Origin: Atriophallophorus winterbourni
Lineage: Eukaryota; Platyhelminthes; Trematoda; Plagiorchiida; Microphallidae
DNA length: 64,000 bases
Direction of reading: 5' to 3'
Assembly: GCA_013407085.1 (NCBI GenBank)
Contig: JACCGJ010005681.1
Location: 1 to 64,000 of the forward strand
The notes under the pieces are model-generated. The model was given only the letters and a program-made list of their open reading frames with translations, did not search any database and had not been told where the DNA came from. How positions within the stretch are numbered: position 1 is the first letter of the stretch; every line of letters starts with the position of its first letter. Shown here one piece after another: positions 16,635 to 44,605 of this stretch. A program made the position numbers and the translations under genes.

Positions 16635-16739
16635 TCATCATCATCATCATCATGAAGCACAAGTCTGGAGCCAGACAAAGTGCTAAGCAATATGAAGCAG
16701 GAAAAGCAGATAAGCAAGCGCGTGGAAGAGGGAAAGCAG

Positions 16740-20770: not shown

Positions 20771-20824
20771 ACGGAAAACAGTTATTAAAAAAGTTTGCAT
20801 GCAGTGTGAGATCATGTAAAGCAT

Positions 20825-21003
20825 TGTAATGAGATAGAGTGAATGATACTTCAAAACGATTGAGAAGATAACGCCTGATAGAAAGGCTTTAATCAACTAA
20901 AGAACACGAGTATGAGCTACAACAAAAAGAAGAAAGGTTAGATGTGTAATACGGTAAAATAAGCGTGTGTACACAATAAAAGGAATGTCAAAACAACACG
21001 ACA
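20825..21003 (-). repeat. 3' LTR of element A
   Basis: 179 bp, TGTAATGAG...CACGACA on the plus strand; identical to 24597-24775 except one base near 20853. Confidence 0.95.
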
Positions 21004-21046: not shown

Positions 21047-23128
21047 TTAGACCTCACGGGATCGAAGATTGTAGGGTCTAACCCTTTGTTGTTGTGAAAC
21101 AAGGTGTTCTACATTTGGTTGAAGTGTAGTGGTTGGTCCAGAAATGTCTGAAGTGGCAGACTGTATGTCAGGTGTACAAAGGGTATCTGGAGGTGTTTCT
21201 GTTGGGTCAGGTGGGTCAGTGTTCAATGGGTTTGGCGACTGATTCATTGGAGCCAGTTGACGGAGAGACACAGTCTCCTCGCGACCATCTGGCAAGCGGA
21301 TATGGGCATACTGAGGATTACTCTCCAGAAGGTCCACCTCTTCCACCAGGGGGTCATACTTGGAGGAACGAACATTTCTGCGATAAAGGACAGGTCCTGG
21401 CATCAACAACCAATTAGGAAGACTCGTACCGACGGGAGACTTGCGATTATGCTTGAACATGCGCTCGTGAGGCGTCTCATTTGTAGCAGTGCATAAGAGA
21501 GACCGCATGGCGTGTAATGCTTCGGGAAGAACAAGTTCCCACTGCTCTGTCGTCAAACCTCTATCTCGCAAGCATAATGAAACAGTTTTCCATAAGGTAC
21601 CGTTCAGACGTTCTACCTGCCCATTACCTTGCGGGTTATAACTGGTGGTCCTACTCGTAGCAACTCCTCGAGAATGAAGAAAAGATTTAATGTCACTGGA
21701 CATGAAGGATGACCCTTGATCTGAGTGTACGTATCCGGGCATACCAAAAATGGAAAAAAGTTCGGTGAGTCGGGAAATTACAGTAGAGCTGGTCATGTCA
21801 GGACATGGGAAAGCAAAGGGGAATCGAGAAAATTCGTCAATTACTGTAAGCAAATATCGATTCCGAGTAGATGAAGGAATGGGCCCTTTAAAATCGATAC
21901 TGAGACGTTCAAAAGGATGTGTTGCTTTAATGAGTGGCTCATTGTAAGGACCGAAAAATTTGGGCTTCAACTGGGAACATACAAGGCACTGTCGAATAAC
22001 AGATTTGACGTCATCAAGAGAGAACGGAAGATTTTTAGATCGGATGAAATGAAATAAACGTGTGATACCCGGGTGGCATAGTGAGTCATGAATGGACTTT
22101 AGTTCAGAAAGCGAATGTACACTAGCACAAAATCCACGGGACAAGGCATCAGCTACGGTATTATCAGGACCCGGTCGATACACCACGTCATAGGAAAACT
22201 GAGAGAGTTCTATACGCCAACGTTGGATTTTGTCGTTCTTGATTTTACTGGCGATTTTCGTATCAAACATAAACGAAACGGAGCGTTGATCAGTGATTAG
22301 TTTAAAATGAGACCCAATGAGATAATGTCTCCATTTTCGAATTGCTTCAACGATCGCGCAAGCTTCCTTCTCGATCGCGGGATGATTACGCTCACTTGGA
22401 GAGAGTGTGCGGGAGAAGAAAGCAACCGGGCGTCCATTTTGGTTGAGAGTAGCTGCTATTGCTACATCGGATGCATCTGTTTCGACAACGAGAGGTACGT
22501 CACGATCAACTGAGAAAAGGGATGCCTGCACTAATTCAGATTTCAGGGATGTGTAAGCGTTCAAAGCTTTCCCGGACAGTGGGAAGATTTTATTGTGAAC
22601 CAGAGGATGGATTTTATCGGAGAACTGGGAGAACCATTGAGAATAATAAGAGAGCATTCCGATTATTCTCTGTTGTGCTTTGGCATCACAGGGTGGAGGC
22701 AGCTTGAGTAAGGCATCAAAGCGTTCAGGGTCTGGTTTCACATTACCAGCAGATACTTCATAGCCCAACAACTTGATTTGCCTGACCGAGAAAATACATT
22801 TGGTGCGATTTATAGTCAGACCGTATTTTTCAACGACTTGTTGAAATTTGTTGAGGTTGACTTCGTGCTCCTTTTCGTCTCGCCCACATATAGTAATGTT
22901 ATCAACGTAAACGAACGTTCCTTGAAGAGATTCGTCACGAATTAATTCATCCATGGCACGTTGAAAACAGGCAACCCCGTTGGTTACCCCGAAAGGGATA
23001 CGCCGGAACTGATACAAATTGCCACAAGCCTCAAACGCCGTATAGAGTCGGTCATTTTTCTTTATTGGAACCTGGTGATATGCACTTTGTAAATCAAGTG
23101 CACTGAAGAACGCGAATTGTGAAATTTT
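21047..23128 (-). pseudogene. Element A Pol: reverse transcriptase, RNase H, integrase
   Basis: This continues the gag-protease frame after the stop at 23129-23131 and stays open to 21047. RT has FFSALDLQSAYHQVP (first Asp), RRIPFGVTNGVACFQRAMDE and FVYVDNITICG, so the usual YxDD is YVDN here. RNase H has VETDASDVAIAATLNQ and ITDQRSV. Integrase shows the HHCC finger (HDSLCHPG...CLVC), then SIDFKGP, HSDQGSS and GQVERLN, a D,D(35)E core. A Pro-rich tail ends VRPYNLRSREV. All domains are complete; only the shared stop and the lost gag start prevent expression. RT and integrase act in the cytoplasmic particle and nucleus. Confidence 0.9.
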
Positions 23129-24545
23129 TTAAATCAAGTCGTCGATTCTTGGCAAAGGGTACGCATCTAATAAAGTATACCGATTGATTGTCTGGCTGTA
23201 GTCAACAACCATGCGCTTTTTGTGTTTTTCATTCGTTGTCACTAGAACCTGTGCTCGCCAAGGTGATTGGGAGGGTTCGATTATATCATCACTGAGTAGT
23301 TTCGTGATTTCTGAACGAATAAAGAGTTCATCATCGTGACTATGTCTTCTTGACTTTGTAGATAAAGGACGACAATCTCGTTGTAAGTGAGTGAAAAGTG
23401 ATGTTGGTGGTAGCAGGGCGACCGACAAACTACAGAGAGAGAATGGTGGTTTCATTCCTTCAAACGGTATTTCGACTGATCGATGGCGTTGAAGAAAGTC
23501 GTGTCCTAGCAAAACATCGGCGCATAGATTTGGAAGAATAGATAGTTTTATGTTTTGGTAGACGTCATTTTTATGTACGATGGACACAAAGCAATGGCCT
23601 TTCGTTTGGCTCAGCATGAAAGTAGAAGCCAATATGATTTGATTAGTAGATTCGAGGACGGGCCAGCGATTTTGTTGCACGATTGTTTCAGAAACGAAGT
23701 TTTCAGAGCTTCCGGTATCGACTAAAGCTTGTAGAGGTACACCATTGACAATTATTTGAGTAACTGCTTTGGCAAGACTGGTTGGGGCTGCAGCTGTGAT
23801 TATGGCAGAAGAAGGAAAAGGAGTAGCAAAAGAAGCATGTTTCGATTTGTCACTCGAACGGCATACTTTGTGGAAATGTCCTTTTTTTCCACAAGACTTA
23901 CACAGAGCATCTTTCGCAGGACACTTATAGCGTGGATGACGATCGTATCCACAAAAGAAACAACTGGAACGTGTGGTAGCCAGAGTTGTCTCAGAACTGA
24001 AAGGAGTTGAATCGGTAGTGGCGTGAGACGCATCGATTGCAGCAGCACCGTAATTACTAGGTGCAGGCTGGATAAACGAATGAGATTGACGTTGGGCCAA
24101 ATCGAGGGCCTTTGCCTGGTCGAAAGCAGTTTGAACATCCAATGTCTTGTTTTCTAACAACCTCTGACGAATGGCATTCGACAAAAGCCCGCTTATGAAA
24201 GCGTCCCGAATAGCATCTTGTTGGTTTTGTTCAGCACTAACAACTTTAAAGTTACAATCCTTTGCAAAATTACGCAATTTCTGCATGAACTGGTCAAGCG
24301 TTTCGTCGCGATTTTGTTTACAAGTGGCAAGGATATGTCTTGAGAATATCTCGTTTTTGGGCTGAACATACAGAGAATTCAAGGTACTGATGGCTAAATC
24401 GTAGTCAGTGCATTGAGAAATGACTTTATAGACAGCAGGCGATAGGAAATGGATAAGAGTCTTCAGTTTGTCTGGTTTGAGAGATTCAACTGTATCGAGG
24501 AAATTCGTAAAGGTCAAAAACCAGTGTTCCCATGAATCGGTAGCA
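23129..24545 (-). pseudogene. Element A Gag-protease and start of RT
   Basis: Gag begins in the text at ADATDSWEHWF, corresponding to about residue 19 of the related Gag in element B. No in-frame ATG precedes it and a TGA lies just upstream. Capsid is followed by two CCHC zinc knuckles, each CX2CX4HX4C (CFFCGYDRHPRYKC and CKSCGKKGHFHKVC), which bind RNA. Protease has LVDTGSSENFVS and VLLGHDFL. RT opens with PWRAQVLVTTNEKHKKRMVV. The frame ends at IDDLI followed by TAA where element C has Glu. It is one fused gag-pol ORF, unlike elements that separate the two by a frameshift. Confidence 0.85.
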
Positions 24546-24565
24546 TCTGCCGCGTATCAGTGCAT

Positions 24566-24595
24566 GCTCATACTCGTGTTCTTTAGTTGATTAAA
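24566..24595 (-). other. Self-complementary primer-binding region of element A
   Basis: One base inside the 5' LTR, 30 bases are the exact complement of a block in the same LTR (24660-24689). In sense RNA the LTR block could fold back on this site and prime reverse transcription, as in Tf1. The match to a tRNA 3' end (TGG...) expected of tRNA-primed elements is absent. The first 14 bases correspond to the sites of B and C; the remaining 16 are unique to A. Confidence 0.75.
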
Positions 24596-24596
24596 T

Positions 24597-24775
24597 TGTA
24601 ATGAGATAGAGTGAATGATACTTCCAAACGATTGAGAAGATAACGCCTGATAGAAAGGCTTTAATCAACTAAAGAACACGAGTATGAGCTACAACAAAAA
24701 GAAGAAAGGTTAGATGTGTAATACGGTAAAATAAGCGTGTGTACACAATAAAAGGAATGTCAAAACAACACGACA
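24597..24775 (-). repeat. 5' LTR of element A
   Basis: 179 bp. Contains the 30-base block (24660-24689) complementary to the interior site at 24566-24595. If the primer extends to the RNA 5' end, transcription starts near 24689. No clean TATA box lies 25-30 bases upstream of that point. Confidence 0.92.
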
Positions 24776-25115
24776 AGCATTTTGAGCAGAGAGCAAAGAG
24801 CTTGGGAGCAGAGAGCGTGAGAGCACGAGATCTGTCATTTTTACCTTTATTTTCATAATTGCTTGTGGGCGTGATACTACCCGGTTGCCCAGGCCGAAGT
24901 AGGGGGTTAGCTTAGGGGGCCCCACCCGGAGCCTTTGGCTAAAAAGCGTGAATCACAAGGCAGTGGCTTGAGACTGAGTTTGTCTTACCTCTATCCATCG
25001 ACCTTCCTGGTGTGAGTAGCTCTGCTTGCACCAAAAGGCACCACCCAGTATAGCTCAATGGGTCATGAAGGTACACAAACCATCGCACCACGTTAAGGTC
25101 CAGTCTCAGCGCGAC
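24776..25115 (-). other. 5' leader of RTE-1
   Basis: These 340 bases lie between the gypsy A insertion and the RTE-1 5' target duplication. On the minus strand they start GTCGCGCTGAGACTGGACC and are GC-richer than the surroundings (GGGTGGGGCCCCCTAAGC). No long ORF. RTE leaders often hold an internal promoter; none can be pointed to here. Confidence 0.7.
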
Positions 25116-25125
25116 GGTTATATGG

Positions 25126-25336
25126 TATTAAAGCACAAGCCTGATCCAGGCAATGTGCCTCACAATCAGAGACTGCACGTGGGCTAAGATACTGTCAGGT
25201 TGCCCAGATCTAGACAGATACGAGGAAGAAAAATGAACAGGAAATGGTATTGAAACTCCAGCCTGTTTCAGCATGGTGCTCACTATTTCTGGCCAATCAA
25301 TTTACCCCGTTATTAGCCGCACAGCACAAAGTACGG
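25126..25336 (-). repeat. SINE-like repeat, host of RTE-1 and element D insertions
   Basis: Reads AAGCACAAGCCTGATCC...TAGCCGCACAGCACAAAG on the plus strand, so its sense is minus. Its 3' tail is shared with RTE-1. The copy continues at 28099 after element D (CACGGCACTATTGCAC matching the family's TGCACGATTGCAC). Confidence 0.75.
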
Positions 25337-25690
25337 TGTTGTGTTCTACCCGAGAAATTCCCAAGTAATAATTACCCAAATGCTGAACACTGAAAACTGT
25401 TATGTTATTGAATAGCTTAACCCAACACTACGCGTAGCCAGAACGGCAGACCGTTCAGGCAAAGAGCTTTACCGTCTCTGACCAACCGGCCCTGTAGGCT
25501 GTAGCTCGTTTGTATTTATAGGTTGCGTCTCACAAACCCAGACTGTCTGGCGAAACCAGACTGTCTGACAAAACTAGACTGTCTGGCGAAACCAGACAAA
25601 GGTCGACAAATTAATCAGAATCGAGAATAATAAATTCAAAGGGTTTAAAGTTAATAATGAGTTTTTGAGGAAAGTAATGCTTCCTCAACA
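25337..25690 (-). repeat. 3' LTR of element D
   Basis: 354 bp with TGTTGTGTTC...CCTCAACA borders on the plus strand. Its last 26 bp recur as the 5' LTR remnant at 28073-28098. Confidence 0.8.
25508..25602 (-). promoter_or_regulatory. Probable LTR promoter with CAGAC/GTCTG repeat array
   Basis: In sense, CCTATAAATACA (25522-25511) is a good TATA box. Just upstream lie three to four 20-21 bp repeats built on CCAGACTGTCTGG (25536-25600), a palindrome of CAGAC/GTCTG boxes. Such clusters next to the TATA in U3 are usual for enhancers. CAGAC is the core bound by Smad proteins, but that link is only a guess here. Confidence 0.55.
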
Positions 25691-25708
25691 CCTCCCCTTT
25701 TTGTATTC

Positions 25709-28090
25709 TCAATACCGGGACTGGCGTGGATTGACCTGCAACGGTTTCACGGGTTTGCTTTTTCTGGTCGTCCAGCGTCGTGGTTGCAGACTTCGGTCAT
25801 CCGGTATTTCCGTCATGATAGATTCGGTTGAGGTTGGAATGTTGAATGTTTCGTACAGTATGTCCGGTGGTATCCGCATCTCGACGAGCGTATCGGAGGC
25901 GACGGATCTCAGACGTAACTGATTTCTGTGTCGTGTTACGACATCGTTTCCAATTCTGACGTCGAACATTACACTGCCTCTGCGACGGATGATGGTACCA
26001 TCGGTCCACGGTGGACTTGATGTGCTGTAGTCTCGTACGTGGACGGCAGTTCCTGGTTCGAAACATGACTGATGATTCCGATTGTGTGCGAGCTTTGTTG
26101 GCTTAGGCAGCATTGCATTATTCCAAGTACGTAGCTTTCTGCCCATGAGTGCTTCAGCGGGGGTTTTGCGGCTTGGCAACGCATCATTCGGCGTAGTTCT
26201 GTACACCAACAGAAAACGTTGTAGACCATCGACGGATGTCACTCCCCACGTGATTTTAGAAGAGCACGTTTGAATGTGTCTACGAAGCGTTCGGCCTGGC
26301 CATTTGACTGAGGATGGTAAGGCGGCGACCGTAGATGTGACACATCGTTTTGTCGGCAAAATTCCGCGAAAACGTCCGATGTGAATTGAGAGCCATTGTC
26401 GGACACGAGCGTTTCTGGCAATCCATGCTGACTGAACAAACGGCGTAGTGCGCCGATCGTGTTGGTGGATGTAGCAGATGACATCTCGATTATTTCGGGC
26501 CATTTCGAGTAAGCATCGACCACGACGAGGTACATGACCCCGTTTATTGGACCAGCGAAATCGACATGGATTCGTTGCCACGGTTTTTCTGGCGTAGGCC
26601 ATGGTGCAATTGGTACACGGTTTGGCATCTTGGCTGCTTGCTGACATTGACGGCATGACTTGACGAATAGATCAATATCTGCGTCCATACCAGGCCAATA
26701 AGCGAAACTTCGAGCGATCGCCTTCATGCGTTGAATGCCTGGGTGCCCATTGTGGAATTGTCGAAGGACACGATTGCGTAGATTCTTTGGAACAACAACG
26801 CGATCATTGAACATCAAGCACTCGTCAATAATTGAAAGTGACTCGCGTCTTTGGTAGAATTGCGAGAGTTCCCCAGGAGGCGTAACTTTCGGCCAACCAC
26901 CGTGAGTATAGGTGATTGCTTGCAACAAAGTTTCGTCTGATTTTGTACATTGTTTAATATCATCAGCTTTGACTGGCAATCCCCGCACTGCGTCATCAAA
27001 TTGTCGCTGCATAGCTTGCTCGATGGAGACGCATGCAATGACGGTATCCTCGTCTGGCTGATCTCGAACCGGGATTAGGCGGGACAGCGCGTCCGCTTGA
27101 CCAAAATCTTCGGATCGACGATATTGTATATTGAAATCGTATCCCAAAAGTATGAGAGACCATCGTTGTAACCGATTTGCAGAATGTGCTGGTATACCTT
27201 TTCTCGAGCCGAATATCGAAATCAAAGGCTTGTGATCAGTTAGCAACGTGAAGTGACGGCCATAGATTAACTTGTGGAATCGTTTGACCGCAAAAATGAG
27301 AGCTAATGCTTCTTTTTCGATTTGACCGTAGTTGCGTTCGGCTGGAGTCAGTGATCGTGAAGCATGCATGATCGCTTTCTCGTTTCCATCGGGAAATCTG
27401 TGAAGAATGACAGCACCCACACCGTATCCAGATGCATCGGCTGCCACGACGATCGGTAGCTTTGAATCGTAGTGCGTCAGTAACATGTTTGAGGTTAACA
27501 GTGATTTTAGCTTCATAAAAGCTGTTTCACATTCTCTTGACCAATTCCAAGGGACATCTTTTTGAAGAAGACGATTGAGCGGTGTTCGCACAGTGTGGAG
27601 TGATGGTAAGAATGCACTGTAATAACTGATCAAACCAAGGTAGGATCGCAGTGTCGTAACATCTTTTGGAGCCGGCATCTGCTGGATTGATTGTATGTTA
27701 CTGGGGTCAGGGTGACGTCCACTTTGATCGAAAATGAAACCAAGGTATTTTATTGATTTCATGTAGAACTGGCATTTCTCGGGACGAAGGCGTAAACCAC
27801 TTTCAGCGATCCGTTCCAACGTCTGATTGATGCGATCATCGAGTTCTTCTTCGGAGGAACCGACAATGATTAGGTCGTCCAGGTATGCGGCCACACCTGG
27901 GATGCCAGACAAAATGGTGTCCATTAGTTGTTGGAAAACGGTTGGAGCAGTCTTTACACCAAAAGTAAGACGTTGATACTGGAATAATCCTTTGTGGGTA
28001 TTAACTGTGAGTAGTTCTCGTGAATCTGGTGCAATTTCGATTTGCAGATATGCGTCAGCTAAATCGAGCCCATTGAGGAAAGTAATGCTT
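25709..28090 (-). pseudogene. Element D Pol: RT (part), RNase H, integrase
   Basis: The frame is readable from FLNGLDLADAYLQIE at 28080 and is open to 26239. RT has VAAYLDDLIIVG with the standard Asp pair. RNase H has VVAADASGYGVGAVIL and LLTDHKPL. Integrase has the HHCC finger (HNGHPGIQRM...CRQCQQ), HVDFAGPI, VSDNGSQF and GQAERFV, all catalytic acids present. A one-base frameshift near 26255 puts the integrase C-terminus (WGVTSVDGLQRFLLVYRTTP to PLQVNPRQSRY) in another frame ending at 25709. The text resembles mag/K02A2.6-type gypsy elements of animals. Confidence 0.85.
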
Positions 28091-28098
28091 CCTCAACA
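28073..28098 (-). repeat. 5' LTR remnant of element D fused to RT
   Basis: 26 bp identical to the U3 start of the 3' LTR, running straight into RT codons for Asn-Gly-Leu-Asp. The shared TTTCCTCAA at the join may be where the deletion was resolved by microhomology. Confidence 0.8.
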
Positions 28099-28334
28099 CA
28101 CGGCACTATTGCACACCCATGCAAAACTAGCTACTGTTAGTCTTTCTTATCTATCACTTTCTGCTTCCTCCCCTTCACGTCGTTTACTGTGGCGCATGAG
28201 GCTACGAAGGTAAACTGAATTTGGAGTTTGTCCCAGTTGTCGCGCACTTTTGCTGCATGGACCAACCCATTATTTAAATGCTGATTCCGTTTCTCAAGCC
28301 TTTGAACCCGTGCTCATACAGTGCACGGATCTGC
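28099..28334. other. SINE-like repeat continuation and unassigned sequence
   Basis: The first ~30 bases continue the SINE-like repeat broken by element D. The rest has no recognised gene; GTTGTCGCGCACTTTTGC near 28235 could be repeat-derived. Confidence 0.3.
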
Positions 28335-28610
28335 AATCGTGTACTGTGCAGGTACCCATGTTGCGCAGATGTGCAATCGTGCAGTATTTCTGTGCTGTGC
28401 GGCTAACATCGTGCTAAATTAATTGCCAACGGTAGTGAGCTACATGCTGAAATATGCTGGAGTCCCACTACCATTCCTATTTCCACCTCATATCTCTCTA
28501 GGTCTGGGCAACCTGACAGTATCTTAGCCCACGTGCAGTCTCTGACTGTGCGGCACTTTGCCTTGATCAGGCTTGTGCTTTCATACCATACCTCCCCCTC
28601 AATTTTTAAC
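28335..28610 (+). repeat. SINE-like repeat, long copy
   Basis: Sense (+): GTGCAATCGTGCAGTATTTC, GCTGTGCGGCTAACATCGTG, then a GGTAGTGAG...CCACTACC stem. CTAGGTCTGGGCAACC, the 3' hairpin region (CTTGATCAGGCTTGTGCTT) and an ATACC-repeat tail follow. One of two near-complete copies (the other is 39455-39705). No A/B-box tRNA head is convincing. Confidence 0.75.
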
Positions 28611-28639
28611 CGTTATTCTTCAGCATCCAATGCGATAAG

Positions 28640-29454
28640 TGACCAACCTGAAACTTTTCGAAGTATTGCACACACTAAACCCAAAATTCATTTTCTAAAA
28701 TGGCTCAAGTCTGCATAAGTGCCATAAATGTACGAACCTTTTTTCAACCAGGCGAGCAACTTTTGTTGCCCACGCCCAGATTTGCTTCTATTTCACTTTG
28801 CCTGGATCAGGCTTGTGCTTTCATTCCATTTCCTATCTCTGTTTGCTGCTTATGAGAGACGCGGCCTCTACGGTAATCGAATTGACTGCAAAATCTTTCC
28901 AAGTCCATGAGGGTGTACGTATAGTACAGACCTCACGTGCAGAAACCTCACATTTTGACTGGATTCTCTCGAATAGCTGGTTGTTTGCCGTCTGACTAGC
29001 TACATCGATTAACACAACTCAAAGTAGCCACTGGTTGTCCGTTGTAGCAACTTATGCTTTGACTAATTATAGCACTAATGACAGCATAGCTATCTTCTAC
29101 GGCGAACTGATTACATTCATTCGATGCGCGAAACATTAAGCCATCATTATTTTTACTGAGGATATTAATGCTCAACTTGGTCGCCTAGAGATTACTGAGT
29201 CACAACTCAGTGGTGCATTCATTCTCGATGCTCAGCAGGCAGACAATGGTGAACACTTTTTGCACTTATGTGCAGTGTATGGACTATTTATTAGTAGCAT
29301 TTTGCTTAAGCATTAGAAGCGGCAGCGTGAAACCTGGCGTCCAATTAACGATGGTCAGCCATGCACGCAAATCGACCATCTCGCCGTAAGCGCTAGGTGA
29401 AAAGACTACATTGAAGACTGACGCTACTTCTGAAAAACTTCTGTAAATCTTCAT
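28640..29454 (+). pseudogene. RTE-1-type LINE, endonuclease remnants (copy RTE-5)
   Basis: Plus-strand traces match the RTE endonuclease: AINVRTFFQPGEQLL near 28717, FTEDINAQLGRLEITE near 29152 (GDxN-type motif), QQADNGEHFLHLCAVYGLF near 29235, and TWRPINDG...TQIDHLA near 29335. A SINE-like fragment (28788-28830) and gypsy element B (from 29455) interrupt it. The linker continues at 30893. Confidence 0.7.
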
Positions 29455-29649
29455 TGTAACGAGATAGAGAGAATGATACTTCCAAACGATTGAGAAGATA
29501 ACGCCTGATAGAAAGGCTTTAATCAACTATAGATTTGGGCATATAGACTGTAACGAGAAAAGAGAACTGTTAACGAAGTAAAGCAGTACAATATGTTTAA
29601 TATACGTGTGTGTTTATAAAGAAGGAAAGGTATGGAAAATGATACGACA
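29455..29649 (-). repeat. 3' LTR of element B
   Basis: 195 bp, TGTAACGAG...ATACGACA on the plus strand. Its right half (TAACGAGATAG...GGCTTTAATCAACTA in plus coordinates) is close to the LTR of A; the rest differs. Confidence 0.92.
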
Positions 29650-29686
29650 TTCTTCCCGGCGGGAAAGAAATGTATGTTATAATAAG

Positions 29687-30676
29687 TCACGCCTCTCGAT
29701 TTCGGAGACAGTAAGGTCTGACTCTTTGTTGCTGCGTGATGAGTTGTTCACGTATTATTTCTTCAGATACATAACTTTCAGAACTTCCGGTGTCAACCAG
29801 GGCATGGAGCGTTATACCATTGACACGGATTTTAGTAATTGCTTTCTTTAAACTGGTTGGCACGGCAGCGGTGGCAATGGCTGATGAAAGAAATGCGCAA
29901 GCAGGAGCATTATGTTTGACAAAGTTTGTAGAACGACAAACTTTGATGAAATGTCCCTTCTTGCCACATGATTTACAAACGGCTTCTCTAGCAGGGCATT
30001 TGTGACGTGGATGTCGATCATATCCACAGAAGAAACAATTACCTGGAAGCCTCGAGTGAGTAGTTGCCAAGGTTGTATCCGACTTAGAGGTATCGAGGTC
30101 TATGGTTTCCTTGGGAGATGCTTTGCAAGTAATGGCAGGAGCTGACGATGCTTATGAATTAGACTGTTGCTGAGCCAAGTCCAACGACTTTGCTTGATCG
30201 AAAGCTGTCTGTAGATCGAGACATTTATGTTCCAGCAAACGTTGCCTGATAGGATTTGATAGCAATCCAGAAATAAACGCATCACGCGTTGCATCATTTT
30301 GATTTTCAGTAGCGCTCACGGATTTGAAATGACAGTCTTTAGCGAATGTGTGCAATCTCTGAACAAACTGGTCGAGGTTTTCGGTTTGTGCTTGTTTGCA
30401 GGTCGCCAAAACATGTCGTGCGAACACTTCGTTTTTTGGTTGCATGTATATGGACTGAAGAGTGGCTACGGCCGATTCATATGTTGTGCATTGAGATATA
30501 AGTTTGTACACAGAAGGCGACAGAAAATGAATCAAAGTTTTGAGTTTGTCTGGTTTGTGCGATTCTATGATTTCAAGAAAATTGCTGAATGTGTAAAACC
30601 AATGCTCCCAGGAGTCGGCAGCATTAGAAGCGTTCGGATCGGCGTCCAAGCGATCAGGTCTGAGTAAACGATCCAT
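29687..30676 (-). pseudogene. Element B Gag with truncated protease fused to Pol tail
   Basis: ATG at 30674-30676 starts 16 bases inside the LTR. The capsid runs MDRLLRPDRLDADPNASN onward, with DSWEHWFYTFSNFLEIIES and SPSVYKLISQCT. One TAA (30152-30154) follows QQQSNS; the same frame continues through two CX2CX4HX4C knuckles (CFFCGYDRHPRHKC, CKSCGKKGHFIKVC). Protease DTGSSESYVSEEIIREQ then passes directly to ITQQQRVRPYCLRNREA, which is the Pol C-terminus. Apart from the stop it could encode a Gag-like protein able to package RNA. Confidence 0.85.
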
Positions 30677-30677
30677 T

Positions 30678-30691
30678 TATAGTTGATTAAA
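30678..30691 (-). other. Self-complementary primer-binding site of element B
   Basis: In sense TTTAATCAACTATA lies one base inside the LTR and one base before the gag ATG. It is the exact complement of the LTR block at 30756-30769. Compared with A, base 13 differs in both the site and the LTR block, so pairing is kept. Confidence 0.75.
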
Positions 30692-30692
30692 T

Positions 30693-30887
30693 TGTAACGA
30701 GATAGAGTGAATGATACTTCCAAACGAATGAGAAGATAACGCCTGATAGAAAGGCTTTAATCAACTATAGATTTGGGCATATAGACTGTAACGAGAAAAG
30801 AGAACTGTTAACGAAGTAAAGCAGTACAATATGTTTAATATACGTGTGTGTTTATAAATAAGGAAAGGTATGGAAAATAATACGACA
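30693..30887 (-). repeat. 5' LTR of element B
   Basis: 195 bp; contains the 14-base block (30756-30769) complementary to the interior primer site. Confidence 0.92.
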
Positions 30888-30892
30888 TTCAT

Positions 30893-31980
30893 CACTCACC
30901 CCTTCTATCGAGATTTTCATTAAAATTCTCCAGCCCAAAAGACCGTCAATCTCTAAACGCATGCCCTCGAGAAGTTTTCAGAGCCTACAAGTTAGCAAAC
31001 TTATTACAGCAGTTTAGTAGATAATGTTTCCACTGCGGTGTCTGACAATATTACACAATTGAAGTGCAAGAGAGTGTAATGCAAGATACTGTGGAGTCGG
31101 CAAGAGACAGTTCCACCCCTAGCAGAATGCCCCACTGGATCTTAAGGCAAGCCTTCGATTACCGAAAGAAAGACGAACGATTCCTCCTGGTTCGCTAACG
31201 AAGACGCGTCAAACATTATTTCAAGCGTTGCATTCGATCAGACAGGGAAGCGCATTGGCTGCAAAAATTCGGGGAAATGGAGGTAGCCATTGCAATGCAT
31301 AAAGTTTGTGGCTGCGAAACCTGGTCTATCCGAGCGGAGGATGTCCGCCTGCTTTCTGTTTTTGATACCCGTTGTCTGCGTAGAATTGCTCGCATTGGGT
31401 AGCAGCATCGTGTTACAAATATAGATGTCTGCAAGCGGGTGTTAGGACCAGGTGGCCACGGACTGAGAGAAATGCTGATGCTTGCTCGCTTGCGGTGGTT
31501 GGGACATGTATTGAGAATGCCTACTCACCGTTTACCGTACCGCGCCTTATTCGCAGCTAGGAGAAAAGATCGGGTGGCCAGTCCATGCGTGGCGCGTTGG
31601 GATGAAGAAACTCACCATAGCGCTGGGCTCAGTTGGGCGTATTCGTTTGCCTGGGTAGGGTCCAAAAGCTCCACCTAATAGTTGGCTGGAAACCTTACGC
31701 GATATGGCTACAAACCGAAGTCAGTGGCGCCAGTGTATTTTATAATGTGTGTCATAATTTTTTATTCGGTATTATTTTACATAAAAACACAAAAAACAAA
31801 AAATCGCATGCAGTGAAACTACAAAAACAAGCTGCTTTTTTGTGCATTTGCATATGCGTATTCCGCTTGCCTGCTTTCCCTTTTCCACGCGCTCGCTTAT
31901 CTGCTATTCCTGCTTCATATTGCTTGGCACTTTGTCTGGCTCCAGACTTGTGCTTCATGATGATGATAATGATGAAGAAG
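30893..31980 (+). pseudogene. RTE-5: linker, C-terminal region and 3' tail, RT deleted
   Basis: After element B the RTE frame resumes (KDRQSLNACPREVFRAY near 30945, DREAHWLQKFGEMEVAIA near 31238). At 31305-31315 it jumps to VCGCETWSIRAEDVRLLS, so the RT core is missing. The C-terminal part has a TAG (31400-31402) after RIARIG, exactly as in RTE-1, then RWLGHVLRMPTHRLPY. The 3' region ends CACTTTGTCTGGCTCCAGAC and a TGATGATGATAATGATGA tail near 31975. Confidence 0.8.
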
Positions 31981-32021
31981 TTTGTTACAGCAAATTCGGT
32001 CTACACGTTTTAAAACCATTG

Positions 32022-32121
32022 TATGTATGAAAGCACAAGCCTGATCCAGGCAAAGTGCCGTACAGTCATAGACTGCACGTTGGCTAAGATACTGTCAGGT
32101 TGCCCAGGCCTAGACAGATTA
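32022..32121 (-). repeat. Truncated SINE-like repeat with 10-bp target duplication
   Basis: AAAACCATTG at 32012-32021 and 32122-32131 flanks 100 bp containing GCCTGATCCAGGCAAAGTGC and GTTGCCCAGGCCTAGACAG. This proves that 5'-truncated copies insert as separate units by target-primed reverse transcription and defines the 3' end near the ATAC tail. Confidence 0.85.
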
Positions 32122-32204
32122 AAAACCATTGGAGTCATCGATGAAATTACAGAAAACGACGGGGCCTTAATCACCAGCAAAGAACGCTGTTTGTCTCGTT
32201 AGGC

Positions 32205-32277
32205 TGCATATTATCATGCAGTCTATGACTGTGCGGCACTTTGCCTGGATCAGCCCTCTGCTTTCATACATACGTAC
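32205..32277 (+). repeat. SINE-like 3' fragment
   Basis: CAGTCTATGACTGTGCGGCA through GCCTGGATCAGCC and CTTTCATACATACGTACGTAC. Short truncated copy in sense. Confidence 0.7.
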
Positions 32278-32430
32278 GTACAAATTATCATTAACCATTT
32301 AGCTGACCAGCAGCAGTTGGCTCGTTGCCTTCTATTCCGCACTGTGAACCCTGGCGAGTTGATTACACGTTTCCATGCGAAGCGGAAATCAACCTCGGCA
32401 TTGAGTTAATGAAAAGATTCACGACAGCTG

Positions 32431-32609
32431 TGTTATAATTATGAATGTTAGATCCGATTGTAAGAATATCAAAAGACGAAGGCCCGAGAACCAGGCTTTA
32501 GTCTTCTAGAAACCGAGGTATGCAATCTGGAATATAAAACGGTAATACTAAGGTGCGAAATAGGAATACAGTTAGTAATAGAAAACAGGAACGGTAAAAT
32601 ATTATCACA
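32431..32609 (-). repeat. 3' LTR of element C
   Basis: 179 bp, TGTTATAATT...TTATCACA on the plus strand. The primer-complementary block here carries one mismatch (TTTAGTC for TTTAATC), which the 5' LTR lacks. Confidence 0.88.
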
Positions 32610-32650
32610 TTCTCCCTCGCCGAAAATACGCGTGCAATAGTTTCACTCAT

Positions 32651-35600
32651 TCAGGTTTCACACTTCGCGATTACGAAGACAATATGGTCTTGTTCGCTGC
32701 TGCTTGATAAATAAATCTTCAGTGGACAATTGATTATCGGCATTTCCGGTTCGGTACTTTGATGCTCAGAAACTTCCGGTAAAGCTTCATTTTGTGAACT
32801 GCTATCAGGATACTCAACTGGATCTGCGGCTGGTGCAAGATGACGCAGTGAAACAGTTTCTTCTGGACCATCTGAAAATCGTATGTGAGCATATTCGGGA
32901 TTGCTCTCAACCAGGTCAAACTCTTCGACCAGAGAGTCATATTTAGATGAACCTGTATTTCTTCGAAGTAGTACACGGCCGGGAGCTAATAGCCACTGAG
33001 GTAAAGAGCTGCCGGTTGCGGACCTGCGAAGGTGACGGAACATTCTTTCATTAGGCGTAACGTTGGTGGCTGTACACAGAAGTGAACGAATAAAATATAG
33101 CGCGTCCGGTAGCACCGACTCCCATTGATCAATTTTTAAGTTTCGAGAACGTAAGCACAATGAGACTGTTTTCCATAGAGTAGCATTCAGTCTCTCTACT
33201 TGCCCATTACAGCGTGGGTTATAGCTTGTGGTTCTACTAGTGGCCACTCCATGTTCGTGTAGGAATGTTTTTAACTCCGCAGACATCAATGAAGCACCTC
33301 TATCTGAATGAATGAAGGAGGGTAGATCAAATGTTGAAAACAGATCAATAAGGCGCTGTATGATCGTGGATGCTTTCATATCCGGACAAGGAAATGCGAA
33401 AGGAAAACGGGAATATTCATCGATCACGGTCAGAATGTAACTGTTACGTGTTGATGAAGGAATCGGTCATTTAAAATCGAGACTCAAACGTTCTAACGGT
33501 TGGGTGGCTTTTATTAAGTGACTAACATCCGGTTTATGAAACTTGGACTTGAGCTCACGACAAGCAGAGCGCTGCTGAATGATTGTCTTCACATCATCAA
33601 GGGAATACGGTAGATTTTTGGACCGAACAAAATGGAAAAAACGAGTCACGCCTGGATGATACATGTTTTCATGTACGATTTTCAAATCAAGTAACGAATG
33701 AAAGCACAAGCCTGATCCAGGCAATGTGCCGCACAGTCAGAGACTGCACGTGGGCTAAGATACTGTCAGGTTGCCCAGGCCTAGACAGATATGAGGGGGA
33801 AAAAGAAATGGAAATGGTAATGAGACTCCAGCGTGTACTCGCATGCAGCTCACTACCGTTGGCCAATGACTTGATGAACAGTAAGCTCTCGAGAGCGCAT
33901 CTGCAGCTTGATTCTGGGTTCCGGGTCGATAGGTTACATCATAAGAGAATTGAGATAGCTCAATACGCCAGCGTTGAACTTTATCGTTTTTTTTATTTTT
34001 CCACCGAGCTTCGAATCATACATAAAAGCAACGGATCGCTGATCGGTTATCAATTCAAAATGCGTCCCCAGTAGATAATACCGCCATTTTCTAATTGCTT
34101 CTATGATAGCGTATGTCTCCTTTTCTACAGCAGAATGTCTTCGTTCACTAGAACTTAGTGTTCGAGAGAAGAATGCTACTGGACGGCCATTTTGGTTCAG
34201 TGTTGCAGAGATAGCGATATCAGATGCATCAGTTTCGACCACCAAAGGCACGTTTCGGTCTACGGTCATTACTGCAGCTTCCATTAATTCTGCCTTGAGA
34301 GCATCATAGCTACGTAAGAGATCTTTAGACAACGGAAACTCCGTGTTGTGGATGAGGGGGTGAATTTTATCGGAGAATTTCGAAAACCACTGAGAATAGT
34401 ACGCAAACATACCAATTACCCGTTGCTGTGACTTCAGATCCGTAGGCGGAGGAAGGAGAATTAATGGTTTAAAGCGATCCGGATCCGGTTTGATCTTCCC
34501 GAATGAAACGTTATATCCTAATAAACAAATCTCATTCGCAGCAAAATGCACTTCTTGTTGTTGAGTGTCAATCCGTACTGTTTAGCAATGTGTAAGAATT
34601 TATCCAAGTTGCGATTATGCTCGGCTATATCTTTTCCACAAACCGTGATATTGTCAACATAAACATATGTTCCATCGAGATTCTCTTTGCGAATTAATTC
34701 ATCGATAGCGCGCTGGAAGCAAGCTACACCATTAGTCATACCGAATGGTATTCTGCAAAATTGATACAGATTATTACAAGCCTCAAATGCAGTGAATGTT
34801 TTCTCGTCTTCTCTGATAGGGATTTGATGATACGCGCTTTCTAGATCAAATGTACTGTATACTTCATAGCGGGATATCTTTTCAATGATGGCATCTATAC
34901 GAGACAGGGGGTACGCATCAAGTTCAGTGAAACGGTTGATGGTTTGACTGTACTCAATCACCATACGCTTCTTTTGACGTTCATTTGTGGTTACGAGCAC
35001 TTGGGCATGCCAAGGAGACTTGGATGGTTCAATTAAACCGTCAGTAACTAATCTGTTTACTTCAGATTTGATAAACGATTCGTCAGCTCGACTAAACCGC
35101 CGTGATTTACTCGTATTCCTTGGCATGCAGGCGATAAATGCGCAAATAAAGTAGGCGCGGGCAGACTAGATGTCGTGAGACCACATACAGAGAAGGTAGG
35201 GCGATCGCCCTGGAACGAAAGTTGAACGCTTTCGTGATGTTTTAAAAAGTCATGTCCGAGAAGGATATCAGTGCACAAGTGTGGGAGTACGGAAAGCTTA
35301 ACATCGTTATATACTGTTCCGTTATGCGACAAAGAAACAACACAATGTCCCTTGATATTGCTTCGTAATTGTGTAGAAGCTAAAATGATTTCGCTGTGTG
35401 ATTGATATATAGGAAATTTATGCCTCTGAACAATCGATTCGCATACAAAACTTTCTGAACTTCCAGTATCGATCAATGCATCTAACTTCAGACCGTTCAC
35501 AATGACTTTAGTGATTGCATTTGAAAGTGATGACAGAGGATGCTAAAATGGTGATGCAGATGCAACATGTTTGTCAGATTTGGAAGAACGAAATACCGAG

Positions 35601-36343
35601 CAAAAATGTCCCATTTTTCCACATGCCTTGCAGATTGCATCACGAGCAGGACACTTGTGACGAGGATGTCTATCATAACCACAAAAGTAGCAAAGGCCTT
35701 GGAGCTTCCGGTTGATGCTGGCCAACGTTTTATTTGGGACTGAATCTATCGGTATGTTTTGGTGGCTATGCATTTCTGTTTGCACAGTCTTACAAGGAAT
35801 TCCCGGGATGGGTGATGTATAAGAATGTGATTGCTTCTGCGCCATGTCTAGAGACTTGGCTTGGTCAAAAGCAGTTTGGATGTTTAGAAATTTATTTTCA
35901 AGCAAGCGTTGTCGGATAGAATTCGAAGACATTCGCGTAATGAAAGCATCACGTATGGCTTCGTCTTGATACTCGACAGCAGTTACAGATTTGAAATTAC
36001 AGTCCCGTGAGAGCGACCGGAGTCGCTGCAAAAACTGATCGAGGCTTTCGCTGGAATCTTGCTTAGACGTAGCCAGTAGATGTCAAGCAAAAACTTCGTT
36101 CTTCGACTGTACATAGGTTGACTGCAGAGTAGAAATAGCTGATTCATAGGAAGTGCATTGAAAAACGAGTTTATACACAGACGGGGAAAGGAAATGGATG
36201 AGTGTCTTTAATTTGTCTGGCTTATGTGAGTCTGTAACATCAAGAAAGTTTATGAATGTATAGAACCAATGTTCCCACGAGTCTGCAGCATCAGATGCAT
36301 TTGGGGCGGTTTCAAAGCGTTCAGGACGAAGTAATCGATCCAT
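32651..36343 (-). pseudogene. Element C gag-pol, inactivated
   Basis: Gag starts at ATG 36341-36343 (MDRLLRPERFETAPNASD), stops at TGA 36083-36085 where B has Arg, and continues in frame through two CCHC knuckles (CYFCGYDRHPRHKC; CKACGKMGHFCSVF has lost the last Cys) and protease (LIDTGSSESFV). A frameshift near 35110 leads to RT: VYSTFDLESAYHQIP, RIPFGMTNGVACFQRAIDE, VYVDNITVCG (YVDN at 34650-34661). After another shift near 34540 comes RNase H (VETDASDIAISATL). Integrase follows the SINE-like insertion and has a stop after LSLDFK, then HSDRGAS and GQVERLN. Confidence 0.85.
33697..33868 (-). repeat. SINE-like repeat inserted in element C
   Basis: Contains AAAGCACAAGCCTGATCC through GCAGCTCACTACCGTTGGCC (plus strand). 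It splits the text ALSRAYCSSS from LLDLKIVHENMYHPG, which are adjacent in element A. It was therefore active after C inserted. Confidence 0.8.
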
Positions 36344-36358
36344 TTCTAGAAGATTAAA
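36343..36358 (-). other. Self-complementary primer-binding site of element C
   Basis: In sense TTTAATCTTCTAGAAA lies one base inside the 5' LTR and overlaps the A of the gag ATG. It is the exact complement of the block at 36426-36441 in the same LTR. Several bases differ from A and B in both partners together. A TATA-like TTTTATATTCC stands about 22 bases upstream of the LTR block in sense. Confidence 0.75.
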
Positions 36359-36359
36359 T

Positions 36360-36504
36360 TGTTATGATTATGAATGTTAGATCCGATTGTAAGAATATCA
36401 AAAGACGAAGGCCCGAAAACTAGGCTTTAATCTTCTAGAAACCGAGGTATGCCATCTGGAATATAAAACTGTAATACTAAGGTGCGAAATAGGAATAGAA
36501 AACA
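36360..36504 (-). repeat. 5' LTR of element C, truncated
   Basis: 145 bp remain. A 12-base stretch is missing relative to the other LTR after AGGAAT, and the U3 end is replaced by a TCA-repeat that is the tail of an RTE-3 fragment. Confidence 0.85.
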
Positions 36505-36929: not shown

Positions 36930-38360
36930 CGCTACGCCGTAAAATATCATCACCAGCTGTTCCTCGTGGACGAGCCTCGATTCTTTTCAAGGACGGTTGG
37001 GATAACTTACTAAGCACACTAGTTAACCTTTTCCGTCAGACATGAGACATTATTCACCGGTGTTAGGGATAATATATAATGATACCTCTTTAAAAAAATA
37101 TTGTGCGTACTCCGTGCTCTAACCACCGAAATAAGCCTTACGCTCGTCATTACGCGACTTCTTGCTTCAGCATGTCTTCGGCCTTTTTCTTTACATTGGG
37201 AATCACAGTTTCGTGAACAGTAAGCTTTATTCCGCCCCTGGAGAAGGTGTTCGATCACATATTCACCCTGGAACATCGTTATCTCTAAAGGCGGACTACT
37301 ATGGCGATCTTTCTCGATTTTAAGGGTGCCTTCGATTCGGTAGATAAGAACGTAATATCTAATACCTTATCGCACAAATATATCCCGAAACAGTATGTTA
37401 ACTTATTTCGCGCTTCTATTCATATGGTTCTGTGTGCCTGTCGACCTACTTTCCTACGGTTAGCCGTGCCTGACTGAGTTGTTTAATTTATCTATTTTAA
37501 TTCATTTTTCAAATTGACGCTGCAATGCCAGCATACCGACACAGGTTGCGATAAGAAACATGTGAGTTACATTATGCTGATGACGTAGTTCTCCTTTTCA
37601 ATTCTTATACGGATGTTTAGGATAATTTATGCCGTCTATGCGGTACCATACCACCCTTCGACGTGCGCTGTGCACCTTATAGGAGCAAAGTTCTTTGAAA
37701 AAAATATTGATCCTACCGAAAATGCACTACGCATCAGTATTCAGGTACCTTCGACTATAGACTTTTTACTATTTAGGTATTTATATTACTTGCAATGCTT
37801 GTTTAAATAAGGAGATTTATGCTCACATATCCAGAGCTACGGTAGCGTATCGTATGGTATGGTATGAAAGCACAAGCCTGATCCAGGCAAAGTGCCACAC
37901 AGTCAGAGACTTTGGTCATCTACGGCGTCAAAGAGTCTTTAAGGCTACCGTTCGCGCTGTTTTACTATCCGGATGTGAAACTTGGATACAGTGAAAAGAA
38001 AAATAAGACATGTAGGTCTTCGATAATCGCTGTTTCCGCTCAGTCGTTAGAATTACTTTGCACCATCGGATGGTTTATGTAACTATACGTAATAAAATAA
38101 TGACGTAAATATCGAGAAAAATGAATATATGTAGACTTAGATGGTTGGACCATGGATTGCGAATGAGAAAACATCTTTCATCCTACGCGGTCTTATTTGC
38201 GACTCATAACTCGGATTGGCTTCGTTGTAAGGGTTGCTGAACGCTGACTTTGCTCAAGAAATTGACGGCATTGACTGTTAAACTAGCTACAGTTGGGGTG
38301 GCCCGTCCCCCTCAAAATCATTTACAGTCATGGTCTTGTTGTAGACATCTTCTTGGAGTG
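36930..38360 (+). pseudogene. RTE-4: decayed RTE-clade LINE
   Basis: Traces in order: ASILFKDGWDNLLSTL near 36975, PGEGVRSHIHPGTS near 37240, AIFLDFKGAFDSVDKN near 37300 (RT block A), HYADD-like text near 37570. After a SINE-like fragment come CFTIRM..DTVKRK, ICRLRWLDHGLRMRKHL near 38130, and TALTVKLATVGVARPP near 38275. The order matches RTE RT to C-terminus. It is full of stops. Confidence 0.65.
37852..37912 (-). repeat. SINE-like 3' fragment with GTATG-repeat tail
   Basis: GTATGGTATGGTATGAAAGC, then GCCTGATCCAGGCAAAGTGC, ending at CAGAGAC. The pentamer tail marks the 3' end of the family. Inserted in RTE-4. Confidence 0.8.
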
Positions 38361-39454: not shown

Positions 39455-39705
39455 CCCGGTAGTTTACGTGCAATCGTGCAGTACGTTGTGCTGTGCGGCT
39501 AACACCGTGCTAAATCGATTGGCCAGAGGTAGTGAGCTGCATGCTGAAACAGGCTAGAGTCTCACTACCATTTCTATTTCCCCGCTCCTATCTCTCTAGG
39601 CCTGGGCAACCTGACAGCATCTTAGCCCACGTACTGTCTCTGACTGTGCGACACTATACCTGGATCAGGCTTGTGCTTTCATACCATACCATACCTCTAA
39701 ATTAG
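39455..39705 (+). repeat. SINE-like repeat, near-complete copy
   Basis: GCAATCGTGCAGTACG, GTGCGGCTAACACCGTG, a 9-bp stem (GGTAGTGAG ... CTCACTACC), CTAGGCCTGGGCAACC, GGATCAGGCTTGTGCTTTC and an ATACC-ATACC tail. Best copy for defining the family. Confidence 0.8.
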
Positions 39706-40002
39706 ATACGTGCCACTTTATCATTTAGTTAACGAACAATGTTTCAAGCTCTTATACTGACATTTGACCGCTTTCAGTGTCCATTATTCCGATACGGCTG
39801 TGCCACATAGAGATTCATTTGGTTGCTCGTTAAACCATAATTTACCATCTTTTGTAAGCTTTTCAATTATACTTTGCTACTTGCTATTTTTTCGATACGC
39901 CTTAAACGTTTTCATTCAATACATACATACTATTCTACTAATTGACCAACATATGATGCCTTCTCGTATTTCGCTTCTTCTTTCATTTTTCAGCCCTCGG
40001 AA

Positions 40003-40734: not shown

Positions 40735-41143
40735 GTGCTGTTGAAACAGTGCTAAATTGATTTGCCTTCGGTAGTGAGCTACATGCAAAAACACAGGAGT
40801 CTCGCTACCATTTCTCTTTTGCCTTACATCTATCTAGGCCTGCGTAACCTGACTGTATCTTAGCTCACGTGCAGTCTATGGCTGTGCTGCGCCATGTCTG
40901 GATTAGGTTTGTCATTTCATACTTACATACGTGCTGTGCTTTCATTGTGCTCATTTACAAACCTACACAGGAGTCTCGCTATCATTACTTTTGCCTTACA
41001 TTTATCTAGGCCTGCGTAACCTGACTGTATCTTAGCTCACGTGCAGTCTATGGCTGTGCTGCGCCATGTCTGGATTAGGTTTGTCATTTCATACTTACAT
41101 ACGTGGTGTGCTTTCATTGTGCTCATTTACAAACCTAACAATT
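40735..41143 (+). repeat. Diverged SINE-like repeat with 174-bp tandem duplication
   Basis: After GTGCTAAATTG and GGTAGTGAG, the block ACACAGGAGTCTCGCTA...TTACAAACCTA occurs twice (from 40791 and from 40965). Both include CTAGGCCTGCGTAACCTGAC and a degraded tail region (GTCTGGATTAGGTTTG). The copies are nearly identical, so the doubling is younger than the SINE insertion. Confidence 0.75.
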
Positions 41144-44049: not shown

Positions 44050-44490
44050 TATAGGATTTGACTGTTAAACTAGCTGTGGTGGGTGCGATCCGACTTCCAG
44101 GTTGTGGTCCAAAAGATTAGATTTCACAGTGGCTTCTCACCCTTGGCGATATGGTCCAAAATCGTGTTCAGTAGCGGTCTTGCTAAAGACATCTTCTTGA
44201 ATTGTTTGTTAATATTGTCTGTTGTCAAGTGAAGTGTTGAGGAAAGCTTGTTATGATGCGTTACAGTGAAAACCGCAAGGAACCTGTCATGCTGATGTCG
44301 ATCTACTCGTTCACAACACTTGCTTAAATGAATGTTTGATTCGAGGCGCAGGTACCTCCTCCCAGTGTGCCTGGGTCTAACCCTATAGAAGTTCAGTAGC
44401 TTTTAGGTCCCATCCTTTGCCATATATTTTCATGGTTGTACGGCAGTTAAGCACTTGGTACTTTTTCCCGGTGTAATGCTGTCTATGATG
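44050..44490 (+). pseudogene. RTE-3: C-terminal end and 3' untranslated region
   Basis: DLTVKLAVVGAIRLPGCGPK and ISQWLLTLGDMVQNRVQ (44057-44175) are the RTE C-terminus (LTV..VG..RLPGWGP...WL.TL.DM). The 3' region ends GTGTAATGCTGTCTATGATG at 44470-44483. Coding is continuous across 44100, the left border of the duplication, so this is the native copy. Confidence 0.7.
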
Positions 44491-44549
44491 ATGGGAAACT
44501 GTCTATAATAGTTCGGTGTAAATGTGAATGATTAAAATGGAAAACAAGT

Positions 44550-44605
44550 TGCACTTCTTTGCCACTGTTGGATAAGGTTGGTACGATCAACCTGTTCATG
44601 ATCAC
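44550..44605 (+). repeat. Palindrome-containing repeat, copy 2
   Basis: AGGTTGGTACGATCAACCT at 44575-44593. Two direct repeats of about 20 bases, AAACTGTCTATAATAGTTCG and its variant with AAAATAG, flank it at 44496-44515 and 44617-44636. Confidence 0.65.

Follow-up and report, generated by a model that had tools for sequence, protein, structure and literature searches.

Ty3/gypsy-type elements of the trematode Atriophallophorus winterbourni that very probably prime reverse transcription with their own trans-spliced leader

A 64,000-nucleotide stretch of the genome of Atriophallophorus winterbourni (contig JACCGJ010005681.1, positions 1 to 64,000; hereafter the window) holds three diverged Ty3/gypsy-type elements, here called A, B and C, all of which read on the minus strand. 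From their sequences and from related loci elsewhere in the genome we conclude that the RNA of such elements is very probably trans-spliced to the host's spliced leader (SL) at an AG inside the long terminal repeat (LTR), and that the resulting RNA, composed of the SL and a short LTR exon, probably serves as the element's own primer. Three lines of observation carry this conclusion: a primer site in each element that is complementary to its own LTR, an acceptor-like AG at the start of the complementary block, and complements of the host SL joined to copies of that block at 14 loci.

A primer site complementary to the element's own LTR

One base inward of the 5′ LTR, each element carries a perfect reverse complement of a block within that LTR (30 of 30 bases in A, 14 of 14 in B and 16 of 16 in C); every base of the pairings reported by a first-pass annotation of the window was confirmed. 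The window has few perfect inverted repeats that reach 12 nt and enclose a loop of 20–200 nt: there are eight, three of which are those of A, B and C, while the other five comprise three inverted copies of one interspersed repeat and two 12-mers. In twenty dinucleotide shuffles of the window, repeats of 12 nt or longer averaged 1.4 and those of 14 nt or longer 0.1, and the longest was 14 nt.

The annotation had also claimed that the cores differ among the elements and that each LTR has changed to match. Indeed, 3 of the 14 core pairs have changed on both sides between elements. A covariation test, limited to three sequences, covered these 14 primer-site pairs and four hairpin pairs: every pair forms in A, B and C, compared with 20–51% of cells when the partners are slid by one to three columns. 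Column shuffles reached the observed covariation values in 10 to 16 of 500 cases, a modest outcome that is expected from three sequences. In predicted RNA folds of the native sequences, the primer block pairs with the primer site at mean probabilities of 0.96–0.99.

The block in each LTR starts at an AG that resembles a splice acceptor. The aligned LTRs show a branch-like CTAAC or TTAAC (in A and B), a pyrimidine tract and the AG; the bases that follow it, 29 in A and 30 in B and C, we term the LTR exon. By a simple score of acceptor strength, 9 of the 7284 AGs in the window equal or exceed the A and B sites, a count that includes the four LTR sites of A and B themselves. The complement in A extends to the acceptor AG. 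Thus, most of the block that had been annotated in A at 24660–24689 stands as the 29-nt exon (24660–24688), but base 24689 is the G of the acceptor, which matches the G of the SL's ATG.

At its other end, the exon closes with ...ATTAAA|GCC and is followed by a small hairpin; the 3′ LTR of C has one base changed in the hexamer. We take ATTAAA, together with the AATAAA and AGTAAA that end the exons of other families (below), to be poly(A) signals. ATTAAA has a predicted probability of being unpaired of 0.06 in the 5′ leader (A, B and C) vs. 0.57 in the 3′ LTR (A and B), and pairing in the 5′ leader may prevent early polyadenylation.

How typical is the 30-nt site of A? Searching the organism's own genome (537 Mb, 15,840 contigs) with the A leader gave at least 84 matches; copy counts are lower bounds because 40 of 528 candidates were scored. 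We fetched 39 other A-family loci (cited, like the other loci below, by our L numbers) by DNA similarity alone, and 36 of them were parsed by script; the 39 include three that the first script missed (L064, L078 and L091), of which L078, read directly, has a site that runs into the gag start. The primer site is 14 nt long in 33 of the parsed copies, 10 nt in L087, 12 nt in L092 and 29 nt in L055. The 33 copies with the 14-nt site have a variable A-run followed by ATGGATCG. The 30-nt complementarity annotated for A is real, but it is not the family norm: A appears to be over-copied. Mismatched copies of block and site, named in advance as counting against self-priming, do exist but are few among the 36 (L092, and L087, which has lost one base in the primer site). 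In L054–L091 the A-run, whose length varies, sits precisely where the 14-nt site ends on its outer side, before the gag ATG, as if the copying edge slips there.

Spliced-leader complements at extended primer sites

Past its exon match, A continues with 21 bases that are the complement of the 3′ end of the genome's own SL, joined at the AG. This likeness was first seen by eye and was scored afterwards; the genome was searched only later. For scoring, published flatworm SLs were taken from a table in PMC3795323. The best of these has its top match in the window exactly at A's predicted junction, with a score of 29 (next, 22); the scan spanned 127,910 positions, of which 3706 were scored after a prefilter. 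None of 5000 shuffled SLs reached 29 (best, 26). Among the other SLs of that table, one similar SL scored 25 and the remaining two scored 12 and 11.

A pattern search of the genome returned 180 SL matches, and the reversed pattern returned none. Of these matches, 100 places were listed; we examined 70 loci, plus contig C9112, which has no inverted exon, and 11 further places in arrays. The arrays are tandem SL-RNA genes with units of ~670–700 bp (Table 1). GTAAG follows the SL in nearly all array places read, the exceptions being one GTGAG (L164) and one GTAGG (L166). The SL reads ACCTATACGGTTCTCTGCCG[T/C]GTAT[C/T]AGTGCATG; because its first base is uncertain, we put its length at about 35 nt. 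The base before ACCTATACGG is T in most array genes read and A in several dispersed copies: L108, L109, L110, L126, L129, L144, L152, L160 and L161 have AACCTATACGG, and the array genes mostly have TACCTATACGG. This first base may be non-templated, perhaps copied from the cap. Judging by the tabulated SLs, the SL presumably resembles those of non-schistosome trematodes. The 19-nt SL variant in A, TGCCGCGTATCAGTGCATG, is followed by GTAAG in four loci (L130, L131, L164 and L165) and is therefore a genuine SL-RNA variant of this genome. Among the arrays read, TATTAG and TATCAG versions occur in separate arrays, and TGCCG[T/C]G varies within arrays. The SL pattern also matched 41 stretches in other genome contigs and 4 in viral contigs (prokaryote or viral), which were taken as chance; exact SL or LTR motifs were absent from the viral contigs.

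Of the 70 SL loci, 11 contain an SL-RNA gene, 12 have an inverted exon close by and 47 have neither (among them L123, in which GTAGG follows the SL); a 71st, L163, also had neither. One of the 12, L095 (G000:C189), was dropped after passing the inverted-copy test. It is a long palindrome whose two arms both contain the SL and which, as far as was seen, has no relation to the LTR primer sites. With the remaining 11 we tabulated L101, which was added by eye and belongs to the family of L100, L055 from the A-family search and A of the window, giving 14 loci in seven exon families.

In all 14 loci, the LTR end and an A are followed by the complement of the exon and then of the SL. The LTR exon is preceded by AG in every case, a dinucleotide that was used neither for picking nor for parsing, and its last hexamer is always ATTAAA, AATAAA or AGTAAA. 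Exon lengths are 17–30 nt; an SL complement of 21–35 nt follows directly, and the loop is 56–70 nt throughout. Over stretches chosen by scored extension, and against SL variants written from the loci read, the SL complement is identical to a variant in 11 of the 14 loci, with 29 of 31 bases in L055 and 33 of 34 in L102 and L103. Exon and primer site match perfectly in eight loci. A scan that imposed no spacer found TTG of the LTR-end complement directly after the antisense exon in 10 of 11 loci, L145 being mismatched there. L140, of C's family, uses the AG that had been noted for C beforehand.

L055 was found by LTR similarity alone, not by its SL. It is the one locus of the 39 in which, as in A of the window, the site runs into the remaining exon and the SL complement (31 nt, 29 identical). 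The locus is an inverted LTR pair around the copied primer; read in reverse, SL, exon and AAA are joined to TTGTAACG, the expected start of the cDNA. The imprint AAA|TTGTAA that RNA cutting and primer extension of the self-primed kind would leave is thus seen in DNA.

Ten different downstream joins occur across the loci, including the gag start (L105), protease (L127), reverse transcriptase (RT; L140), the interval between RT and RNase H (L102) and an inverted LTR (L055). The outer flanks of L105, L114 and L132 differ, yet the three loci have one extended site and its join in common, and such a site thus need not preclude further movement. Four of the six non-A families encode relatives of the A proteins in the short stretches compared: identities are 39–70% for the families of L102–L132, L127 and L140, and L141 is a weak case (40% over 97 residues). 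The families of L100/L101 and L145 gave no match to A proteins in the short stretches compared. L114 also has a stretch 99.4% identical to the A integrase, probably from a neighbouring A-family copy.

Sense SL sequences were seen as well. In L113, L115, L128, L134, L135, L147 and L154 a sense SL is joined to related repeats at slightly varying AGs (e.g., TTGCATTCCAG); these are perhaps trans-spliced retrocopies of another repeat family. In L161 (G000:C8771) a sense SL is joined to a C-like LTR exon that runs uncut into GCC and the hairpin; the locus resembles a retrocopy of a trans-spliced leader that escaped cleavage.

A proposed priming cycle and its alternatives

What cycle would leave such sites? 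We infer from the DNA that element RNA is trans-spliced, cut by RNase H and used as an attached primer, in that order. The pre-RNA would be trans-spliced at the AG inside the LTR, so that its 5′ end consists of the SL (about 35 nt) and the 17–30 nt LTR exon. The 3′ part of the exon would then anneal to the primer site, which lies downstream of the 5′ LTR, one base away, and RNase H would cut the RNA after ...AAA (AAA|GC). The released SL–exon RNA would prime minus-strand DNA at the LTR edge (...AAA|TTGTAA...) and, to judge from the DNA, would stay attached and be copied during plus-strand synthesis. Splicing would remove the LTR part upstream of the acceptor, which would be regained from the 3′ LTR. 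A retained primer is one that the plus strand can copy, and over-copying would yield the SL-bearing sites. Usually ~14 nt of the primer copy would survive the second strand transfer; occasionally the whole exon and 21–35 nt of the SL would be copied and joined elsewhere, giving element A, whose primer site is, as we read it, over-copied. The self primer of Tf1 is reportedly not removed (the title of a 2006 paper by Atwood-Moore is said to state as much), which fits a retained primer.

Several points weigh against this cycle. By the same simple score, the acceptor of C is weaker than those of A and B, and that of B is placed by alignment, no SL-joined copy of its exon having been seen among the loci examined. 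In 38 of the 39 fetched A-family loci the site runs into the gag start with no SL at the site. L092 (G000:C8486), which reads as a mosaic of two subfamilies, has an LTR of A type together with a primer site and gag start of B type, and shows one mismatch between block and site. Exon and primer site differ by one to three bases in 6 of the 14 loci. Because the parser sought CAATTTA, it partly imposed the one-A spacer and the exon's final TAAA. Twelve of the 14 loci owe their selection to an SL pattern and therefore do not show how frequently the RNA is trans-spliced. Finally, copies of one family are not independent events.

Could simpler arrangements account for the data? The first-pass annotation had proposed self-priming of a Tf1-like kind. 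The self-priming is borne out by the match of site and block in three diverged elements and their genomic copies and by the longer primer complements at 14 loci, but the simple Tf1 arrangement is not, as the RNA 5′ end is apparently trans-spliced and composed of SL and LTR exon. We regard it as highly improbable that the RNA instead begins at a transcription start at the block edge, with the SL beside A due to chance or to a secondary event. Complementarity, covariation and folding would indeed need no trans-splicing, the pyrimidine tract and AG could be an initiator, and most fetched A-family loci lack the SL. However, a transcription-start edge leaves the SL unexplained and was rejected on that ground: the SL complement is joined at the AG in all 14 over-copied loci and seven families, 11 of them identical to a genomic SL variant, and both A-family cases are SL-joined, including the one found by its LTR. 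An ordinary tRNA primer, with some other role for the inverted repeat, is next to impossible in our estimation, even though flatworm gypsy elements have been described with tRNA primers. In none of the three elements does TGG, the mark of a site for a tRNA 3′ end, occur in the 16 nt next to the LTR (the host tRNA set itself was not searched), in agreement with the annotation; it first appears downstream of the LTR at +64 in A and at +17 in B and C. The latter is the ATGG of the gag start, where the differences between B and C are codon-like, and a tRNA primer at that position was rejected.

That the primer is an SL–exon fragment acting in trans, from the RNA of another copy, we consider rather unlikely. 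The exon–site mismatches in six loci would fit primers or templates of other copies, as would the A/B mosaic L092, but later mutation could also cause mismatches, and the perfect match in eight loci and the uniform 56–70 nt loops fit folding in cis. The cis and trans modes are not mutually exclusive. We give scarcely any credence to the idea that the SL-bearing loci are unrelated retrocopies, or DNA rearrangements of the inverted repeat, unconnected with priming. By script, 48 of the 71 SL loci lack both an inverted exon and an SL-RNA gene with its GTAAG, and L113, L128 and L161 look like sense retrocopies of SL-joined repeats. DNA-level hairpin repair was rejected, however, in that it would extend into the pyrimidine tract of the LTR and not into the SL, and the antisense exon directly before TTG, seen with no spacer imposed, lies in the place required of a primer. 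Ordinary minus-strand copying of the RNA 5′ end was rejected too: in that case GGC of the LTR interior, rather than the LTR end and an A, would precede the antisense exon.

On a broader form of the SL-primed cycle our judgement is evenly balanced. Here, SL trans-splicing would be required for replication and would alone set both the primer and the genomic RNA's 5′ end; the LTR would restore its upstream part from the 3′ copy; pairing at the primer site would hide the poly(A) signal of the 5′ LTR alone; and the same cycle would operate in gypsy elements of SL-using flatworms, explaining many LTR-linked SL fragments.

Element anatomy, relatives and significance

The features of the three elements are collected in Table 1. 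LTRs, gag and the order protease, RT, RNase H, integrase mark the elements as Ty3/gypsy. A had been annotated with a single fused gag-pol frame. Its gag, protease, RT, RNase H and integrase do lie in one frame, but this frame has in-frame stops at 24559 and 23131; the SL complement occupies the place of the gag start in B and C and introduces the stop at 24559. The two LTRs of B (98% identical) enclose ~1 kb with gag, and the coding region of C has decayed.

Table 1. Positions of element features and repeats in the window, and of SL-RNA gene arrays elsewhere in the genome
Feature	Position	Strand	Remarks
A 5′ LTR	24597..24775	-	179 nt, TGTCG...TTACA; 99.4% identical to A 3′ LTR
A 3′ LTR	20825..21003	-	
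A target duplication	24776-24780 and 20820-20824		ATGCT, 5 bp
A putative trans-splice acceptor	24689..24713	-	CTAAC branch-like site, pyrimidine tract, AG
A LTR exon	24660..24688	-	29 nt; putative 3′ part of self-primer; ATTAAA end
A hairpin	24645..24659	-	GCCTTTCTATCAGGC; immediately 3′ of putative primer end
A core primer binding site	24582..24595	-	14 nt; one base (24596) inside LTR
A over-copied part of primer site	24567..24581	-	complement of remaining exon
A complement of SL's last 21 nt	24546..24566	-	21/21 identical
A open stretch: gag, protease, RT start	23129..24517	-	two CCHC knuckles in gag, by eye
A open stretch: RT, RNase H, integrase	21047..23017	-	same frame as 23129..24517
B 5′ LTR	30693..30887	-	
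B 3′ LTR	29455..29649	-	
B LTR exon	30756..30785	-	30 nt; after predicted acceptor AG at 30786-30787
B primer binding site	30678..30691	-	14 nt
B gag open frame	30152..30676	-	starts MDRLLRP, one base past primer site
C 5′ LTR	36360..36497	-	truncated on U3 side
C 3′ LTR	32431..32609	-	
C LTR exon	36426..36455	-	30 nt; after AG at 36456-36457; same boundary SL-joined in L140
C primer binding site	36343..36358	-	16 nt
Copies of interspersed repeat TGATCCAGGCAAAGTGCCGCACAGTCAGAGACTGCACGTGGGC	16304-16646, 25108-25334, 28371-28604, 32008-32281, 33679-33867, 37847-37911, 39468-39727, 40749-41140		
SL-RNA gene arrays	contigs C2757, C4726, C6607, C8214, C9206		loci L117-L122, L136, L164-L167

Elsewhere in the window, 25709–27924 holds what is left of a further gypsy element, with RT, RNase H and integrase but no recognised LTRs, and 44028–61000 contains long repeats spaced 8475–8507 bp apart and 97–100% identical, that is, ~8.5 kb in tandem. 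The interspersed repeat of Table 1 is present in many copies on both strands, and similar sequence borders L145 and L161. Scans of the window for Rfam families and tRNAs returned nothing; a further scan gave three weak matches, which were taken as chance. Relatives of the A pol and B gag were not confirmed in viral contigs, nor were relatives of the A pol in other genome contigs.

How do these elements compare with known systems? Self-priming has been described for Tf1, Tf2, Tj1, sushi, Tcn1 and, in Ty1/copia, TAR elements. Like Tf1/Tf2/Tj1 of fission yeasts and the sushi group, the present elements have a site complementary to the 5′ part of their own RNA, no tRNA site and a primer that would need to be cut from the RNA. 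Unlike in Tf1/sushi, the LTR block follows a splice acceptor, and the primer would carry the host SL and a 3′ end like a poly(A) signal; Tf1 is not known to have a trans-spliced primer or such a primer 3′ end. A chromodomain was absent from the integrase end (last 117 aa, E ≤ 10) and from the results of the domain scan. We thus do not file the elements with Tf1/sushi, although they seem to work alike, and membership in that clade is not supported. The best match of A among solved structures is Ty3.

Cer1 of Caenorhabditis elegans is, like the present elements, a gypsy/Ty3 element of an SL-using animal with an SL acceptor, in its case for SL1, and it produces a short SL1-spliced mRNA; unlike here, its 8-kb Gag/Pol RNA is reported not to be trans-spliced at the SL1 site, and its proposed primer site matches tRNA-Pro (PMC3315495). 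Among flatworm Ty3/gypsy elements, to which those described here also belong, published accounts give a tRNA-Trp primer for CsRn1-like elements and other tRNAs for Saci2-like and taeniid elements. CsRn1-like elements have a 4-bp duplication and a CHCC gag, whereas A has a 5-bp duplication, CCHC knuckles and no TGG at the site; A therefore lacks the marks of the CsRn1 lineage, with its gag judged by eye and tRNA-Trp unaligned. A short LTR and two CCHC knuckles may point towards the Mag-like gypsy clade.

In work on parasitic flatworms, Calvelo et al. (2025; PMC12582326) set aside 597 candidate SL loci near mobile elements, mainly LTR and LINE, and suggest integrated retrotransposon transcripts that had received the SL. 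The main text of that paper is without the terms "primer binding", "self-prim", "PBS" and "long terminal repeat". The loci described here would explain its LTR-linked SL cases as copied primers. We found no report of SL-primed LTR elements in the literature searched, which left most subscription papers and preprints outside, and an earlier report is possible.

In LTR elements and retroviruses a host tRNA usually primes reverse transcription, and self-priming is a known exception. If the cycle proposed here is true, it would be a new way of making a self-primer, by trans-splicing a host leader onto the element's RNA, and it would tie transposon replication to a step of host RNA processing. It could also explain SL fragments beside LTR elements in flatworm genomes. 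Over-copied primer sites would map RNA 5′ ends from genomic DNA alone, and the proposal is thus testable in many genomes at once.

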